64,000 nt of DNA. It comes from Lactiplantibacillus paraplantarum (GTDB lineage Bacteria; Bacillota; Bacilli; Lactobacillales; Lactobacillaceae). The translations under genes and the position numbers were made by a program. The stretch's first letter is position 1, and each line of letters begins with the position of its first letter. The stretch covers positions 248,001-312,000 of the forward strand of contig NZ_CP032744.1 in the NCBI RefSeq assembly GCF_003641145.1, read 5' to 3'. The notes beneath the pieces were generated by a model that saw only the letters and a program-made list of their open reading frames with translations, was not told where the DNA came from and made no database searches. Positions 6,581 through 43,486 of this stretch are shown here, piece by piece.

Positions 6581-8026
6581 ATGATGAAAACGTCATTTAT
6601 TATAGGTGTGTCTTTGTTAAGTGCTATGTGTATTTTTTCTCAAGCATCAGCTAATGAACAGAGGACGTATACGAGCCAAGAGAGTGTAGCTACGTACGAA
6701 ACATCCTCATCTTCAAATAGCTTACAATTATCGAATGTGGAGACAGCGTCAATAAACTTAAGCAACTACTATACTACTAACCCTGGTAAAGTAGTTATGC
6801 TAGTAGACGCACACACGTATACTGATAATGAGCTGAAAAACCCAATTAAAAAGGTAACTAAGGGTTCAGTAGTTAACGTGTATGGTGTTGAAATTGCCCC
6901 AAGCGGTTATCCGCGGCTGAAGGTTGATGGAGGGTATCTAACTGCAAACAAAAAGAATGTTGTTAAGGCAACTGAAAAAATAAATAATTATTATACTGTT
7001 AATCCCGGTCAAGTTGCGTTACTAATTAATGATTATGTATACTCGGATGTGGATTTTACAAACAAAGTTCGCTCTATTTCAAAAGGTTCATTGATCACAG
7101 TTCAAGGAATTGAGTATACTTCAAGTGGTTATCCAAGATTGAAAGTTGATGGAGGATATTTGACAGCGAATAAGTCTCTTGTAACCAAGCCAACTGATAA
7201 GATAGCTAATTACTATACTTCAAATCCCGGTCAAGTTGCACTTTTAGTTGATGATTATATTTATTCCGATTTAGATTTTACGACCAAAGTTCGAGCTGTC
7301 TCAAAAGGTACACTAGTGAGTGTACAAGGAATTGAATATACTTCAGATGGTTATCCAAGACTAAAAGTTAGCGGAGGGTACTTAACGGCGAATAATTCCC
7401 GTGTTACAAGGCCAGTTTCAACGCTCTCCAATTATTATGTTACAAATCCAGGCAAAATTATCATGTTAGTTAATGCGCATATTTATGGGGATGTAAATCT
7501 TCAGAATCGAGGCAGTGCTGTAACAAAAGGAACGGTGGTTAATGTACAAGGAATTGAGTTTGCACCTAATGGGTATCCCCGCTTAAAGGTGAGTGGTGGC
7601 TATCTTACAGCAAATAAGGCTAATGTTGCTCAATACAAAGAAACTGCTAACAACGAGAAAATTCAACAAGTTATTAAACTTGCCAAAACCAAGCTGGGTG
7701 ACCCTTACACTCAATCTCAGGCGGGACGACTCGGACCAAATTCATTTGACTGCTCGGGCTTTGTTTATTATTTGTATAAGACTGCGGCAGGTGTCACTTT
7801 GAACGGAACAGTTACAACAACTGAGGAGAAATCCGGGTATGAAGTTTCATTAAATTCATTAAAACCAGGTGATTTATTATTTTATGGTACTAGGGGTAGT
7901 ACTTATCATGTTGGGCTATATGAGGGCAATGGGGTAATGATTCATGCTTCAACACCTGAGGATGGGGTCAAAGAGACCCAGATTCAGTATTATATGCCTA
8001 GCTTTGCTCGAAGAATTTTAGATTGA
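6581..8026 (+). CDS. Secreted NlpC/P60 peptidoglycan endopeptidase with four wall-binding-type repeats
   Basis: The 481-residue protein begins with a signal peptide (hydrophobic stretch ending near SQASA). Four tandem units of about 70 residues follow (about residues 65-345), each with the pattern NYYTxNPGxV, a YxD core, YPRLKVxGGYLTAN. They look like the SH3-like DUF5776 repeats of lactobacillar surface proteins. The C-terminal NlpC/P60 domain carries Cys391 (FDCSGF), His443 (TYHVGLY) and His455 (IHAS) as a plausible catalytic triad. It should cut stem-peptide bonds in peptidoglycan and act outside the membrane. AGGGGG precedes two consecutive ATGs (6581, 6584); the second has better spacing. 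It is a single-gene unit with its own terminator. Confidence 0.85.
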   Translation: MMKTSFIIGVSLLSAMCIFSQASANEQRTYTSQESVATYETSSSSNSLQLSNVETASINLSNYYTTNPGKVVMLVDAHTYTDNELKNPIKKVTKGSVVNVYGVEIAPSGYPRLKVDGGYLTANKKNVVKATEKINNYYTVNPGQVALLINDYVYSDVDFTNKVRSISKGSLITVQGIEYTSSGYPRLKVDGGYLTANKSLVTKPTDKIANYYTSNPGQVALLVDDYIYSDLDFTTKVRAVSKGTLVSVQGIEYTSDGYPRLKVSGGYLTANNSRVTRPVSTLSNYYVTNPGKIIMLVNAHIYGDVNLQNRGSAVTKGTVVNVQGIEFAPNGYPRLKVSGGYLTANKANVAQYKETANNEKIQQVIKLAKTKLGDPYTQSQAGRLGPNSFDCSGFVYYLYKTAAGVTLNGTVTTTEEKSGYEVSLNSLKPGDLLFYGTRGSTYHVGLYEGNGVMIHASTPEDGVKETQIQYYMPSFARRILD

Positions 8027-8079
8027 TTAGCATAGACCATTAGTGAGAGCCTATGTGATTTTCCTTAAAACAGCACTAC

Positions 8080-8133
8080 AGAAGGACAATCGGTAACAAG
8101 CCTAGGCTTAGTACTGATTGTCCTTCTTTGATT
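8080..8133 (+). terminator. Terminator after the NlpC/P60 gene
   Basis: AGAAGGACAATC (8080-8091) pairs with GATTGTCCTTCT (8116-8127), with a loop of about 24 nt that can pair further internally, and a T-rich tail follows. It lies between convergent genes. Confidence 0.7.
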
Positions 8134-8204
8134 TTAAAATGGTTCTATAATATCTGTTGTTGATAATTAAGTAAAAATTTGATTACTGGTAGCACACTGT
8201 CAGC

Positions 8205-8645
8205 TTATTTACCAGCATCTTTCTTTGCTTGTTCCACCAAGATATTATCGACCACGTCTTGCAAGCTAGTCTTAGCTAACCGTGCTTCCGCCGCTGTTTG
8301 CGCGTCTTGATAGTATTGTTTCAGGACGGTTTGAATATTACCACCAACAATGCAATCCGGGTTGGTCTTAGGATCGACAGCGAGTAGCGGCTTATCGCCT
8401 TCAATTGCATAAAAGACACTGAGTAATGAGATTTGACTCAATGGTTTAGCCAACGTTGGTTGAGCGGTACCGGGCGTTGTAGTAATTAGTCCGGCTTGTC
8501 GAAGCTTGCTCATTAATCGGCGAACAACGACTGGACTAGTCTCAATGCTGCGGGCGATGGCGTCACTTGTTAATTTAGTATCGGCGTAGATTTTAATGTA
8601 GGCTAATAAATGGGTTGAGTCGCTAAAACGAGTTGAAACACGCAT
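8205..8645 (-). CDS. Rrf2-family transcriptional regulator (YwnA-like)
   Basis: The 146-residue protein has the Rrf2 layout: an N-terminal winged helix (STHLLAYIKIYAD, then SIETSPVVVRRLMSKLRQAGLI as recognition region), a dimer helix, and a C-terminal helix rich in Ala/Gln. Classical Fe-S Rrf2 proteins such as IscR and NsrR have three clustered cysteines. Here only one, in NPDCIVGG, is visible, so an Fe-S sensor is unlikely; a thiol or ligand sensor is possible. AGGAAGTGAT lies at normal spacing before ATG 8645. An inverted repeat just upstream may be its own operator. It is divergent from a TetR gene. Its target is unknown. Confidence 0.85.
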   Translation of the reverse strand: MRVSTRFSDSTHLLAYIKIYADTKLTSDAIARSIETSPVVVRRLMSKLRQAGLITTTPGTAQPTLAKPLSQISLLSVFYAIEGDKPLLAVDPKTNPDCIVGGNIQTVLKQYYQDAQTAAEARLAKTSLQDVVDNILVEQAKKDAGK

Positions 8646-38899: not shown

Positions 38900-39274
38900 C
38901 TAGTCAGCCTTTAATTGGACTAACCAATTATCCGTTTGCTTGTTACTAACGATCAGTTGTGGGGTAGCTTGTAAAGCAACATTAGTCTTCTGAACGGTAC
39001 CACTAAAGGGCGTTGGCAGTGTGTGCACACCATGGTCGTCTGTGAGAGTTGCCAAAGTGTCCCCTGCCATGAGATGCTCGCCATTAGTTGGCAAGCTAAT
39101 TTGACTAACTAGGCCTAAGTTTTGCTGGCCTTGAGTGCTTAGCCCTAGCAGTAGCCGTTGGTGTGATTTGGTCTTTAACCATACGTCACCGTATAACATC
39201 GGCGCGTGTTGTTCCTCATAGTCATGACGATAGAAATGGATCATTTGTTTCCAAGCCGATTCTTGTTTTGCCAT
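38900..39274 (-). CDS. GcvH-like (lipoyl-domain-type) protein lacking the modifiable lysine
   Basis: The 124-residue protein resembles glycine-cleavage H protein: YGDVWLKTKSHQRLLLGLSTQGQQNLGLVSQISLP (start of the sandwich), HLMAGDTLATL and a PFSGTV segment. In canonical H proteins a hairpin ESVKA carries the lipoyl-lysine; the aligned residues here are TDDHG, with His in place of Lys. Lipoylation at the usual site is therefore not possible. No other glycine-cleavage gene is nearby. It is the last cistron of a four-gene operon, 11 nt after the preceding stop with GAGGAG upstream. Possible roles are a scaffold or partner-binding domain; unproven. Confidence 0.65.
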   Translation of the reverse strand: MAKQESAWKQMIHFYRHDYEEQHAPMLYGDVWLKTKSHQRLLLGLSTQGQQNLGLVSQISLPTNGEHLMAGDTLATLTDDHGVHTLPTPFSGTVQKTNVALQATPQLIVSNKQTDNWLVQLKAD

Positions 39275-39285
39275 CGTATTCTCCT

Positions 39286-40203
39286 CTAATTCAGTGCCAG
39301 TAGTTGGTGCATTAATTGAAAGTGGTGCATGATTGCTAGTTTTTTGATTGTTCCTAATCCTGGAAATTTGGTGCCTTCAGCATAGGCTAGTAGGGCGGCC
39401 AAAGCTGGGGTGCGATTTAATCCCGTTAAGTGGGTGGGCGCCCAAGCTGTTAGCTTCGTGAGTGCTTCGAAAAATTTCTTCTTTTGACCACGCATATTGG
39501 TATTACTATCTGAGACAAAATGATGGATGCGGAGGTCACCATTAACCGTAACATAAATAATATGTAACGCAATTGCGCGTGACGGCATCCCGTGATCAAA
39601 GTACGGACGGCCCATTAATGAATAATCGCCAAAGCCATCAAAGCCAACTGGTGATAGGTGCCAGTTGGCTGGTGCAAAATAAGCGTCGACTAATTCCTGG
39701 TAATCCGCAACGTGCGCTGGTGTTGGCACGGGATCGGTCAATAAGATAGCACGGGTTGGGAGTAGTTCGTGTAGTCGCGCCTCATCAGGAATCAGAATAT
39801 GCCCGGTCTGACGCAAAGTGTTAGTGTGTTGGTAAGTCTTAAGCAACGGATAGTTAGGTGCTACTAGCAAGCTCGTCTGACCAAGACCAGTCGTCAGAAA
39901 ATCGTGACTAAAGTCAGCTGCAAGAATCGCTCCCGGATGGTAAAACGGATAGGGACGCAGGTCTGGCAGTGGATGGAGTTTAACGGTATTGAGTCCGTAG
40001 ACGCTTACTTGGGGATTGGCAATGATGCTAAACGGTTGTTGTGCTTCAATGAAAGTCCGAACGGTCTGTTGTAATTCCTTAGAATCACGGACTGGTTCAA
40101 TAACTGGGATGATGTCGGGACCTAATTGATTTTGCTCGCACAAGGCTTTTAAGGCCAATAGATCATACATTCGGCCACGTAAGTAAGGGTAGTAGGTACT
40201 CAT
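39286..40203 (-). CDS. sce7725-like protein (T4 beta-protein relative), function unknown
   Basis: The 305-residue protein opens with YYPYLRGRMYDLLALKAL and IIPVIEPVRDSKELQQTV, the pattern I associate with the sce7725 family and related phage 'beta protein' proteins. Another motif is PSRAIALHIIYV near residue 215, then HHFVSDSNTN. No catalytic motif is recognised; the fold may be a TIM-barrel-like scaffold. In other genomes this family is often next to a small nuclease-like partner, and here a PD-(D/E)XK-like gene precedes it with a 4-nt ATGA overlap. Such tight coupling suggests a stoichiometric complex. The family assignment is from memory. Confidence 0.6.
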   Translation of the reverse strand: MSTYYPYLRGRMYDLLALKALCEQNQLGPDIIPVIEPVRDSKELQQTVRTFIEAQQPFSIIANPQVSVYGLNTVKLHPLPDLRPYPFYHPGAILAADFSHDFLTTGLGQTSLLVAPNYPLLKTYQHTNTLRQTGHILIPDEARLHELLPTRAILLTDPVPTPAHVADYQELVDAYFAPANWHLSPVGFDGFGDYSLMGRPYFDHGMPSRAIALHIIYVTVNGDLRIHHFVSDSNTNMRGQKKKFFEALTKLTAWAPTHLTGLNRTPALAALLAYAEGTKFPGLGTIKKLAIMHHFQLMHQLLALN

Positions 40204-40916
40204 AATTGGTCACGCAAATCTGGCGCTGTCAATGCCTGGTATTTTAGTTTGAGCGCTTGATATTCTGCGTTACGGGCATCCAGTTCTGTTTGCAAGGCCG
40301 TTATGGCGTCACTTTGGGTATCATCAATAAAGCGATCATATAAGTTTTGTTCCGGATCATAGACATCATAGCCAGTCCGACTTCGCTTGCGTAATTCTTT
40401 GAAGAGTTGGTCATCAGAATAAAGTTGTAATCCTTTTTTGACGCGTTTGGCTTTATCAACTTCGCGAAATAACGAGGCGATGAAGTGACTGATCAGGGGC
40501 GCCTGTTCGACTTGTAAATCCTGCCGCTGCGCTTTTTTAGCGACTGTCAAGAAGCCCGGTGTTCGTAACGGCCGAGGGGCGAGTTCCAGTGCCCGTTGAT
40601 CGAAGGCACGGTAAATCAATACGCCTACGTGATCTGGGATTTCAGCTTGGACTTCTTGATAAAGTTGTTGCGGCAAGACAAAGTAATTGTAATGACCGAT
40701 AAAGGAAAGCTTGGCTTTAGAATGAAAGTCAGCTTTAGTGACTTTTAATTCATAGCAGCGCCATTCAATCTGGCCATCCGGGAGTTGTTGGTAGCTTAAC
40801 GTATCAACAATCCCCTTATCAGCGGGCATTGCAACTTCTTCAACCACGTAAGCGCCCTGTTCCAGACAGTACTGGTAGAGCGTGCTTTCAAGTTGCTTAG
40901 TTAATTTAGTCTTCAT
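40200..40916 (-). CDS. MmcB-like PD-(D/E)XK nuclease-fold protein with C-terminal coiled coil
   Basis: Protein of 238 residues. ATG 40916 is preferred over 40943 because GGAGGTGA stands at proper spacing. The stretch Asp38 (GIVDTL) followed by Glu56-x-Lys58 (CYELKVTKADF) fits a PD-(D/E)XK active site, and FIGHYNYFVLP with VGVLIYRAF continues as in MmcB/sce7726-type proteins. Residues 200-235 (ITALQTELDARNAEYQALKLKY) form a coiled coil. It may cut or bind branched or damaged DNA. Start and stop share one base with the helicase upstream (TAATG) and four bases with the sce7725-like gene downstream, so translation is coupled. Confidence 0.7.
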   Translation of the reverse strand: MKTKLTKQLESTLYQYCLEQGAYVVEEVAMPADKGIVDTLSYQQLPDGQIEWRCYELKVTKADFHSKAKLSFIGHYNYFVLPQQLYQEVQAEIPDHVGVLIYRAFDQRALELAPRPLRTPGFLTVAKKAQRQDLQVEQAPLISHFIASLFREVDKAKRVKKGLQLYSDDQLFKELRKRSRTGYDVYDPEQNLYDRFIDDTQSDAITALQTELDARNAEYQALKLKYQALTAPDLRDQL

Positions 40917-43285
40917 TAATGAGTCACCTCCGTTTGGTGCCAAAAGTTGGTAATGGTCGCTTCGAGCTGCGGCACTGATTGGATCGTCTGATAGTATTGC
41001 CAGTGTGCTGGGAATAACTCAGTGTAGCGTCGGCTGGCAAAACGTTGGTCTAATAACAGCACGATTCCGGTATCCTTGGCGCTACGAATTAGGCGACCAG
41101 CTGCCTGTAGGACGTTGTTCATCCCTGGTAGCTGATAAGCGTAGGCAAATCCCAGGCCATTTTGATGGTCGTAGTAGTCCCGAATCAAGTTGGTTTCGGG
41201 ATTGATCCCTGGCAAACCAACGCTAACGATGGCAACTCCGATTAAACGATCGCCACGTAAATCAATACCTTCAGAGAAGATGCCACCCAGTACGCAGAAA
41301 CCGAGTAAGGTTTGCGCTGGGGCTGACTGAAACTGGTTCAAAAAGGTCTGCCGGGCTGTTGCATCCATCGTCGAGGCTTGCGCAGTAGTTGCGACATCGG
41401 GATAGGCGGCTTCAAAGGCTGTCTTAATCTGCAGCAGATAGCCATACGATGGGAAGAACACGAGGTAGTTGCCGCGTTTAGCTGTCAACATGGCGTGTAA
41501 ACTAGCAATGATCCGGGGCACGTTATGTTCCCGCTCGTGATACGTCGTTTGAACGTACTGAGTGACGAGGATGGCCTGATGTTTTGGTGGAAATGGCGAT
41601 GGCAGTTGGTAGGCCAAACTATTGGCTTCACCACCGAGCACCCGCTGGTAATATGCCATGGGGGTTAGTGTTGCAGAGAAAAGGACGGCACCACTACCCA
41701 GTTCTAGGGAACGGTTAAGAAAGTCACTTGGATCAAGGCAGAGTTCCTTGATCGTCAAGTGATGGCCATCAAGGACGAAGCGTGTCTGATAGCTGCCATC
41801 GTACAGATCGCCAATCTTAACAAAAGTCAGACAGGCGAAGAAATAGTCACGGACGGCGTCAAGCAGCGGTCCCGGCTTTTGCTGCGCTAACCAGTCGATC
41901 ACAAATTCGTTAAAAGTTCTTAGGGTGCGTAATAATTTGTCCGGGGGATCAGGTAATACTTGTTCGGTGACTTGATCGTCAAGCAAGGTCTTACTGATCC
42001 GTGTAAAACTGCGCCGAACCTTTTTGAGTTCGCGTTGCAAGTCATCACTAGGTTGACTTTTATCGGGTTTGGCAAGCTTTAGTAACGCACTAATCGGTTG
42101 ATTGCTAATCGCTGCTGAGTACATATCACGAGATCGACTAACTAGGTTGTGAACTTCATCGACAAGAAAGAAGTTGTCGTCATCACTTTCGCTAAAGAAT
42201 CGTTGTAAATAGACTAACGGATCAAAGAGGTAATTGTAATCGCAAATAATCACATCACAGAAAAGCGATGTATCGAGGGAGAATTCAAATGGATCGATAG
42301 TATGCTTGCGAGCATACTGTTCAATAATGGGACGAGTAATCTGGTCTTCATGAGTCAATAAATCCTTGAGTGCCGGCTTAAGCCGGTCGTAGTAGCCAAT
42401 CATATAAGGATTATCTTCGGGAAGCATATCTTGTTCTTCAGGAAAGCGAATCTGATCCTTGGCGGTTAACGTAATGCTTTTAAGTTTGAGACCGTCATGA
42501 CTCATTAATGTAACGGCCTCTTCAGCGACGTGGCGCGTACTTTGCTTAGCAGTCAGGTAAAAGAGGCGTTCAATCACGTCTTCGCCCATTGCTTTGATGG
42601 CCGGAAATAGTGTTGAGATCGTTTTCCCCGTCCCAGTTGGTGCTTCGACAAATAATCGTTTTTGTAATCGAATGGTCTTATAAACAGCGCCAGCTAATTC
42701 GTGCTGGCCCGGTCGAAAAGCTGGAAATGGAAATGGGAGCTCTTTAATGGAAGTATTTCGTTGCTGACGCAAATCAGCCCGTAGTGTTAGCCAATATTCA
42801 TATTCTGTAATTAAGTCCTGAAAGAAGGCGTCTAGTTCGGCGCGGTGAAGAACTTGCTGAGTTTTAGTGATTTTTTCATTGATAACTTGAAAATAAGTCA
42901 GCTGTAAAGTAACTTGATCGAGGTCAGGGTGCTCTTGTAGTAAAAGGTAACCGTAGACTTTAATTTGGCCCCAGTAAAGAGTCTGTGTATTGGTACTTAA
43001 GTCTTCAAAGGCTTGATCAGAAGTTTTGATTTCTTCGATCAAAGCGCCGTCATCGTTTAATTGAATACCATCTGCCCGACCAGCAATAATATAATCGGTG
43101 GCATTCATCGTGACGACTTTTTTAAGGTAAACTTCGCTATCATAGTCTTCGCCACGACTACTCTGGAGCTGCCGGTGAATCTTGGCACCATTTAACGCAG
43201 TGTTCTGACTATTTTTCACTTCATTTAAGTCGCCTTGTCGCAAGACGAATTCTACCAGTTGTCGAATCCCAATCTTAGTTGCCAT
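40916..43285 (-). CDS. Fused RecB/Cas4-type nuclease and XPD/DinG-type helicase
   Basis: The 789-residue protein has an N-terminal nuclease domain (residues 1-170) with His37, Asp72 (GRADG), Glu84/85-x-Lys87 (EEIKT) and Gln107xxxTyr111, the RecB/Cas4 pattern. The helicase part has Walker A EAPTGTGKT (214-222), DEVHNL box (about 376-381), GAVLFSATLTP and a final GRLIRSAKDTG motif, as in XPD/DinG superfamily 2. In this family four cysteines binding a 4Fe-4S cluster lie between Walker A and motif II. Residues 223-342 contain no Cys; the region reads KDQIRFPEEQDMLPEDN and HTIDPFEF. It should unwind DNA and perhaps cleave it. First gene of a four-gene operon. Confidence 0.82.
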   Translation of the reverse strand: MATKIGIRQLVEFVLRQGDLNEVKNSQNTALNGAKIHRQLQSSRGEDYDSEVYLKKVVTMNATDYIIAGRADGIQLNDDGALIEEIKTSDQAFEDLSTNTQTLYWGQIKVYGYLLLQEHPDLDQVTLQLTYFQVINEKITKTQQVLHRAELDAFFQDLITEYEYWLTLRADLRQQRNTSIKELPFPFPAFRPGQHELAGAVYKTIRLQKRLFVEAPTGTGKTISTLFPAIKAMGEDVIERLFYLTAKQSTRHVAEEAVTLMSHDGLKLKSITLTAKDQIRFPEEQDMLPEDNPYMIGYYDRLKPALKDLLTHEDQITRPIIEQYARKHTIDPFEFSLDTSLFCDVIICDYNYLFDPLVYLQRFFSESDDDNFFLVDEVHNLVSRSRDMYSAAISNQPISALLKLAKPDKSQPSDDLQRELKKVRRSFTRISKTLLDDQVTEQVLPDPPDKLLRTLRTFNEFVIDWLAQQKPGPLLDAVRDYFFACLTFVKIGDLYDGSYQTRFVLDGHHLTIKELCLDPSDFLNRSLELGSGAVLFSATLTPMAYYQRVLGGEANSLAYQLPSPFPPKHQAILVTQYVQTTYHEREHNVPRIIASLHAMLTAKRGNYLVFFPSYGYLLQIKTAFEAAYPDVATTAQASTMDATARQTFLNQFQSAPAQTLLGFCVLGGIFSEGIDLRGDRLIGVAIVSVGLPGINPETNLIRDYYDHQNGLGFAYAYQLPGMNNVLQAAGRLIRSAKDTGIVLLLDQRFASRRYTELFPAHWQYYQTIQSVPQLEATITNFWHQTEVTH

Positions 43286-43486
43286 CGGAGCATCCCTTCT
43301 GAATTTAGTCGTTTCCTATTATAAAACATCTGTTCGGGTTTGTCTGCTGTTGATTGGTGAAGCTGGGTCAGACCTTGTGATACGGTCCTGAAAGATTGTT
43401 AAATCGTGTCAGTTTTCAAAGTCAAAAGCAACTAGCTGAGATTCGCTGGAAATAATTCGGATTTAGCGTAAACATACCTAATTGGT

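Follow-up and report, generated by a model that had tools for sequence, protein, structure and literature searches.

A conserved nuclease-helicase, MmcB-like and sce7725 gene unit of Lactobacillaceae as a probable SOS-type DNA-processing cassette related to a phage-defence module

Introduction

Why should a nuclease-helicase, a second putative nuclease and a protein of the sce7725 family be encoded by overlapping genes in a lactobacillus? The question is raised by four minus-strand open reading frames (ORFs) at positions 38900..43285 of a 64,000-nucleotide (nt) stretch of the Lactiplantibacillus paraplantarum genome (contig NZ_CP032744.1, positions 248,001 to 312,000; hereafter the window). 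Three of the four genes form a conserved core. Their order, their overlaps, their conservation, their intact catalytic residues and an upstream box that recurs in relatives are observed, and from these features of the sequence it is probable that the three genes constitute one LexA-repressed, DNA-damage-induced and vertically inherited cassette for DNA processing, with a defence module among its relatives. In the open-access literature searched, no paper was found on this gene combination or on the function of sce7725, which is just listed where it is named. The parts belong to or resemble known families. With one member placed in an SOS-type unit beside two putative nucleases, and tied to the beta protein of satellite phage P4, the sce7725 family would gain a testable role in a food bacterium that is harmless and open to genetic work. 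A repair cassette would then be connected to the ancestry of an anti-phage module.

The genes are listed in the order of transcription.

40916..43285, minus strand: EndoDinG-type nuclease-helicase, 789 amino acids (aa), from family and domain searches and alignment; without the four Fe-S cysteines
40200..40916, minus strand: MmcB-like PD-(D/E)XK protein, 238 aa
39286..40203, minus strand: sce7725 family protein (NF033831, 280.5 bits), 305 aa; predicted TIM-barrel-like fold; probable remote relative of P4 beta
38900..39274, minus strand: GcvH-like protein, 124 aa; lipoyl-lysine position occupied by His; neighbour in one genus, outside the conserved core

An earlier note on this DNA had described these as four coupled genes, and the close coupling was borne out when the ORFs and junctions were re-read. 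From helicase to GcvH-like gene, the junctions are TAATG, ATGA (a 4-base overlap) and an 11-nt gap. The start of mmcB is the ATG at 40916, so that the gene spans 40200-40916. Its ribosome-binding sequence, GGAGGTGA, lies inside the end of the helicase gene, and another, AGGAG, stands ahead of the GcvH-like gene in the 11-nt gap.

Conservation of a three-gene core

The neighbourhood was surveyed in 301 Lactobacillaceae genomes, one per species. The sce7725 gene was found in 85 of them, the MmcB-like gene in 83 (counting two weak matches), the helicase in 164 (E<=1e-60) and the GcvH-like gene in 32 (E<=1e-12). In all 81 genomes with a strong MmcB-like match, sce7725 lies directly downstream of mmcB. 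Among the matches listed, the helicase lies at most 400 base pairs (bp) upstream of mmcB in 66 of the 81, which span many genera; in the other 15 it lies elsewhere (six), about 0.9 kb upstream (two) or is absent from the matches listed (seven). One of the last seven, G003, does have the helicase, as two ORFs adjoining mmcB. Four genomes have sce7725 but no MmcB-like match and three carry a second copy of sce7725; all seven of these loci (L054-L060) have the order sce7726-sce7725-RES. A second scan covered named genomes and was limited to the best 80 of 566 sce7725 relatives, a sample that favours the type of the window. Here, the MmcB-like gene stands upstream in 77 of 80 loci and the remaining three are again sce7726-sce7725-RES. 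The helicase is also present in 61 of the 77, and the GcvH-like gene in 13, of which 12 are from named Lactiplantibacillus and the last is from an uncultured Lactobacillus.

Thus, the conserved core consists of the helicase, MmcB-like and sce7725 genes, and the GcvH-like gene is a looser, genus-specific neighbour. The earlier note had made its case depend on whether the genes are neighbours in related genomes; three of them are, whereas the GcvH-like gene, which it had counted as a member of the unit, adjoins the operon only in Lactiplantibacillus. The idea of four genes as one conserved unit was rejected for this reason.

Are the helicase and the mmcB-sce7725 pair functionally unrelated, sharing a promoter by chance? 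The helicase occurs in 164 of 301 genomes and the pair in only 81; many helicases stand alone, and six genomes carry both helicase and pair lying apart, among the matches listed. Against this stand their adjacency in 66 of 81 genomes, with the same limit on matches, and in 61 of the 77 named loci, which are the nearest relatives, as well as the SOS-type box on both halves of two split genomes described below. Chance association is therefore regarded as very improbable.

The MmcB-like gene is present in 21 of 21 Lactiplantibacillus species and in 35 of 36 Companilactobacillus species, the exception having a genome of 1.5 Mb. In phylogenetic trees, genera are monophyletic in 6 of 6 cases for the MmcB-like protein, in 5 of 6 for sce7725, where Lactiplantibacillus is the exception, and in 3 of 4 for the helicase, where it is Companilactobacillus; for these trees fragments were dropped (2/77, 2/77 and 0/61) and four loci were assigned to a genus by guess. 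The protein distances of the three correlate, with r of 0.957-0.965 over 58 loci. Near-monophyletic trees, genus-wide presence and correlated distances together point to largely vertical inheritance of the core unit.

An SOS-type box at the promoter

The following sites were recognized upstream of the helicase gene.

43341..43346, minus strand: -35-like hexamer CAGACA (consensus scan; 10/12 jointly with the -10, spacer 17)
43323..43336, minus strand: LexA/SOS-type box CGAACAGATGTTTT, with one mismatch to CGAACRNRYGTTYG, 51 bp ahead of the helicase start
43318..43323, minus strand: -10-like hexamer TATAAT (consensus scan)

The pattern CGAACRNRYGTTYG is what we take to be the Bacillus-type LexA/SOS consensus. 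The putative box occupies the space between the -35 and the -10, overlapping the latter by one base. This promoter-like site is the highest-scoring one (10/12) of six in the scanned region, fewer than in shuffled sequences (mean 9.2). With at most one mismatch the box is the sole match in the window, yet 66 of 100 shuffles contain at least one, so that its weight comes from its position and its conservation.

Conservation was assessed by allowing at most two mismatches within 200 bp upstream of the start and, for the helicase, by comparison with 100 windows drawn at random from each locus; the loci are partly redundant, several being one region under two names, and the relatives are not independent. 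A box precedes the helicase in 62 of 87 loci, as a rule by 46-68 bp, and in none of the 62 did more than 9% of the random windows reach an equal match. At loci without a nearby helicase, a box precedes mmcB in 21 of 27, and in 20 of these by 22-61 bp. In two of five split genomes examined, G175 (L064, L063) and G288 (L086, L087), helicase and mmcB-sce7725 lie on different contigs and both halves are boxed. This consensus also precedes some genes of the L. paraplantarum genome that resemble lexA, recA, dinB, uvrB and parE (named by eye). From the WCFS1 locus tags, the window helicase gene is presumably lp_0308. In the literature, lp_0308, a 'putative DNA helicase', is given as peroxide-induced alongside recA, lexA, dinP and umuC (PMC2174512).

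The two putative nucleases

The helicase of the window matches the Pfam domains Helicase_C_2 and DEAD_2. In the alignment of 86 helicases, the residues H, E, D and E-x-K of the N-terminal PD-(D/E)XK nuclease are invariant, and so are the Walker A lysine and the DE of the DEAH-type box. A nuclease-helicase fusion, as first proposed, is borne out. The same fusion of an N-terminal PD-(D/E)XK nuclease to an XPD/DinG helicase is found in EndoDinG, a subgroup of DinG-like helicases (PMC11981726; PDB 9kqh). The 4Fe-4S CCCC cysteines described for that subgroup (PMC11981726) are replaced in the lactobacillar proteins: the four positions are R, M, N and D in the window, 84 of the 86 aligned Lactobacillaceae helicases have no cysteine there and only L070 has three or more. 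Since this motif is lost, the protein is called EndoDinG-type rather than a full member of EndoDinG. The broader PADLOC model typeIV_DinG matches the window helicase with 3.1e-118. A match to CasDinG of type IV CRISPR was looked for and not found, the score to Csf4 being 19 bits against a cut-off of 400; csf and cas genes were not searched for.

In the second protein, D37, E55 and K57, the D and E-x-K of PD-(D/E)XK, are invariant in an alignment of 40 sequences, in agreement with the putative MmcB-like nuclease of the earlier note. A PHROG family named 'DNA repair protein' matches it weakly (3.8e-4), and some database names of its relatives read MmcB. In Caulobacter, MmcB is described as an SOS-regulated PD-(D/E)XK endonuclease that protects against mitomycin C (PMC9578287). 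The lactobacillar protein shares the PD-(D/E)XK residues, its predicted model looks MmcB-like and its unit has an SOS-type box; it differs in an extra C-terminal helical part, in its fixed partner sce7725 and in falling below the cut-off of every Pfam and NCBIfam family.

Relatives of this protein also occur in 54 phage records, 43 of them of Bacillus phages, where mostly the N-terminal two thirds are covered; one is annotated as 'MmcB-like DNA repair protein'. In genome G123 (L061, at 7247-8335), a 123-aa ORF and a gene for a methylpurine-DNA glycosylase come after an mmcB-sce7725 pair that has no helicase. Around another pair, in the record of 'Listeria phage LM 4-14-1' (OR848224.1, unverified; L047), the series of ORF lengths equals that of the Enterococcus faecium plasmid p114-2 (L046), which suggests that the record is plasmid and not phage DNA.

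A role in DNA damage

How might the three products act together? Upon DNA damage, LexA would be cleaved and the three-gene unit would be expressed. The nuclease-helicase may unwind and cut DNA, and the MmcB-like nuclease may incise damaged DNA, for example crosslinked DNA. The TIM-barrel protein sce7725 would be the constant partner of the MmcB-like protein, as a regulator or sensor. In this scheme the mmcB-sce7725 pair would form the constant part and the helicase a co-regulated, usually linked processor.

Several observations weigh against this explanation. The SOS motif is not enriched in the genome: 51 matches were counted against 62 for the reversed control pattern, with palindromic sites scored on both strands, and the genome-wide count was rejected as evidence on its own. 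Many of the genomic sites that were inspected, which are a part of all sites, have no SOS gene downstream. The other three split genomes do not follow the pattern: G209 has a box at mmcB (L084) but not at the helicase (L085), G123 has none on either half (L061, L062), and G191 has none at mmcB (L082) and one 200 bp before the helicase (L081). No helicase box was found in the Secundilactobacillus loci, in Levilactobacillus L145 and L147 and at several solitary helicases, and in Lactiplantibacillus L067/L102 and L131 it appears only at three mismatches. Likewise, no box was found at mmcB in Lapidilactobacillus, in genus g34 (L061, L082) and on plasmid L048. The failure of the MmcB-like protein to reach a Pfam or NCBIfam cut-off counts on the same side.

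Probable kinship of sce7725 with P4 beta and defence modules

The third protein of the window belongs to the sce7725 family NF033831 (280.5 bits; cut-off 60) and is predicted to be TIM-barrel-like, with a mean predicted local distance difference test score (pLDDT) of 93.1. Between the sce7725 profile and one built from the beta proteins of P4 and Bacillota, a match was obtained with P 4e-6 and prob 87, over 63 N-terminal columns only. This is in line with the sce7725-like, beta-related protein of the earlier note. The window protein itself matches neither the PADLOC beta model nor PD-Lambda-2_C (E<=0.01 for the latter) and no Pfam family at E<=1. When 64 relatives were scanned directly, one matched the beta model and ten matched PD-Lambda-2_C (best 1.8e-4), all weakly.

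In its database record, P4 cII is called an sce7726 family protein, the cII and sce7726 profiles agree with P 4.6e-24, and the PADLOC cII model matches both sce7726 proteins tested (1.1e-14, 5.3e-20). The MmcB-like profile matches sce7726 (P 4.8e-4) and cII (P 0.0092) weakly, against 0.31 for a control comparison with beta. The Pfam beta family is present in 8 of 249 Bacillota genomes. In seven of eight fetched Bacillota loci (L175-L182; the eighth unchecked), a cII-like gene is convergent with beta, as in satellite P4.

The gop-beta-cII module of P4 confers protection against lambda and P1, and in the absence of beta its Gop component is toxic (PMC9122126). Like this module, the window operon pairs a protein that resembles beta by its profile with a PD-(D/E)XK-type protein, as read from motifs. 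It differs in that none of its four proteins matches a gop model in PADLOC (flanking genes were not scanned), in its added helicase and SOS-type box, and in that its MmcB-like protein is only weakly cII-like and has no PADLOC cII match. In PD-lambda-2, the third component is beta-like and its model is the one matched weakly by the ten sce7725 relatives; the first two components are HigB-like and HigA-peptidase-like (PMC9519451), which sets it apart from the window, as does the missing match of the window sce7725.

Another related system is the sce7726-sce7725-RES cassette, in which the same sce7725 family follows a PD-(D/E)XK-type partner. It ends in a RES-domain gene, its sce7726 start has no SOS box in any of 16 partly redundant loci, and an EndoDinG-type helicase is present in 0 of 12 mapped loci. 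These 12 (L049-L060) lie on plasmids, on Lactobacillaceae contigs and near conjugative-element genes in a Salmonella contig. The RES domain was confirmed in two of the proteins, and none of three tested matches a PADLOC model at E<=0.1. The cassette is a candidate toxin-bearing relative of gop-beta-cII. Further loci of this order are L167, L170 and L171; taken together, the loci lie on plasmids, mobile elements and chromosomes. PMC9394441 names a mobile element of P. aeruginosa that carries the sce7726, sce7725 and RES families. The genome of the window was also searched for a RES toxin at another place; no match was obtained and the idea was rejected.

Does the operon then serve as a core anti-phage system? 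In such a system, set off by infection or by phage DNA, the MmcB-like and sce7725 proteins would recognize the invader and the nuclease-helicase would degrade its DNA, the effector of gop-beta-cII having been swapped so that DNA degradation replaces a toxin. The profile match to P4 beta, the block of lambda and P1 by gop-beta-cII, the requirement of the beta-like PD-lambda-2C for defence (PMC9519451), the weak PD-Lambda-2_C matches of ten relatives and the presence of mmcB-sce7725 on an Enterococcus faecium plasmid speak for it. On the other hand, presence in 21/21 and 35/36 species with mostly monophyletic genera is unlike a typical patchy defence gene, though core immunity could look this way, and PADLOC at E<=1 gives no match for the MmcB-like, sce7725 and GcvH-like proteins of the window, the strong helicase match being to a DinG model. 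A core defence role, the main rival explanation, is considered unlikely. The earlier note had offered DNA repair or anti-phage action; the box and the genus-wide mmcB favour a role in damage, and the tie to anti-phage systems is one of remote family.

The constant pairing with a 4-base overlap, together with the toxicity of Gop in the absence of beta, also recalls a toxin-antitoxin pair, in which a harmful MmcB-like nuclease would be restrained by sce7725 and released by damage or infection. Toxin-antitoxin operons usually have the order antitoxin then toxin, which mmcB-sce7725 reverses. Moreover, the beta relative PD-lambda-2C is dispensable for neutralizing its toxin (PMC9519451). Such a pair is judged improbable.

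Under the preferred explanation, a damage-induced cassette, the mmcB-sce7725 pair would be a remote relative of the beta/cII pair, without a toxin and under SOS control. A broader view, which we hold only tentatively, is that beta-superfamily TIM barrels (P4 beta, PD-lambda-2C and sce7725) have a common task in sensing or control, carried out together with a PD-(D/E)XK partner and coupled to different outputs. These would be Gop, a toxin with an NAD+-consuming RES domain and, in lactobacilli, a nuclease-helicase under SOS control. In that case, the window operon could have descended from a phage-defence module and been domesticated as part of the core genome, where it would now serve damage repair, or both repair and defence.

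The GcvH-like neighbour

The fourth protein contains a GCV_H domain (53.2 bits; cut-off 22.2), as GcvH does, and scores below the NCBIfam cut-offs for GcvH. The lipoyl lysine of GcvH is a histidine in the window protein, so that a role as lipoyl carrier was rejected. The lysine is lost in 9 and kept in 4 of 13 aligned Lactiplantibacillus copies, and lost in 9 of 14 GcvH-like sequences. The protein is presumably either a passenger or an addition specific to this lineage, and the unit can be explained without it. In one genome of another genus (G234, genus g16), a GcvH-like relative is encoded about 78 kb away from the operon.

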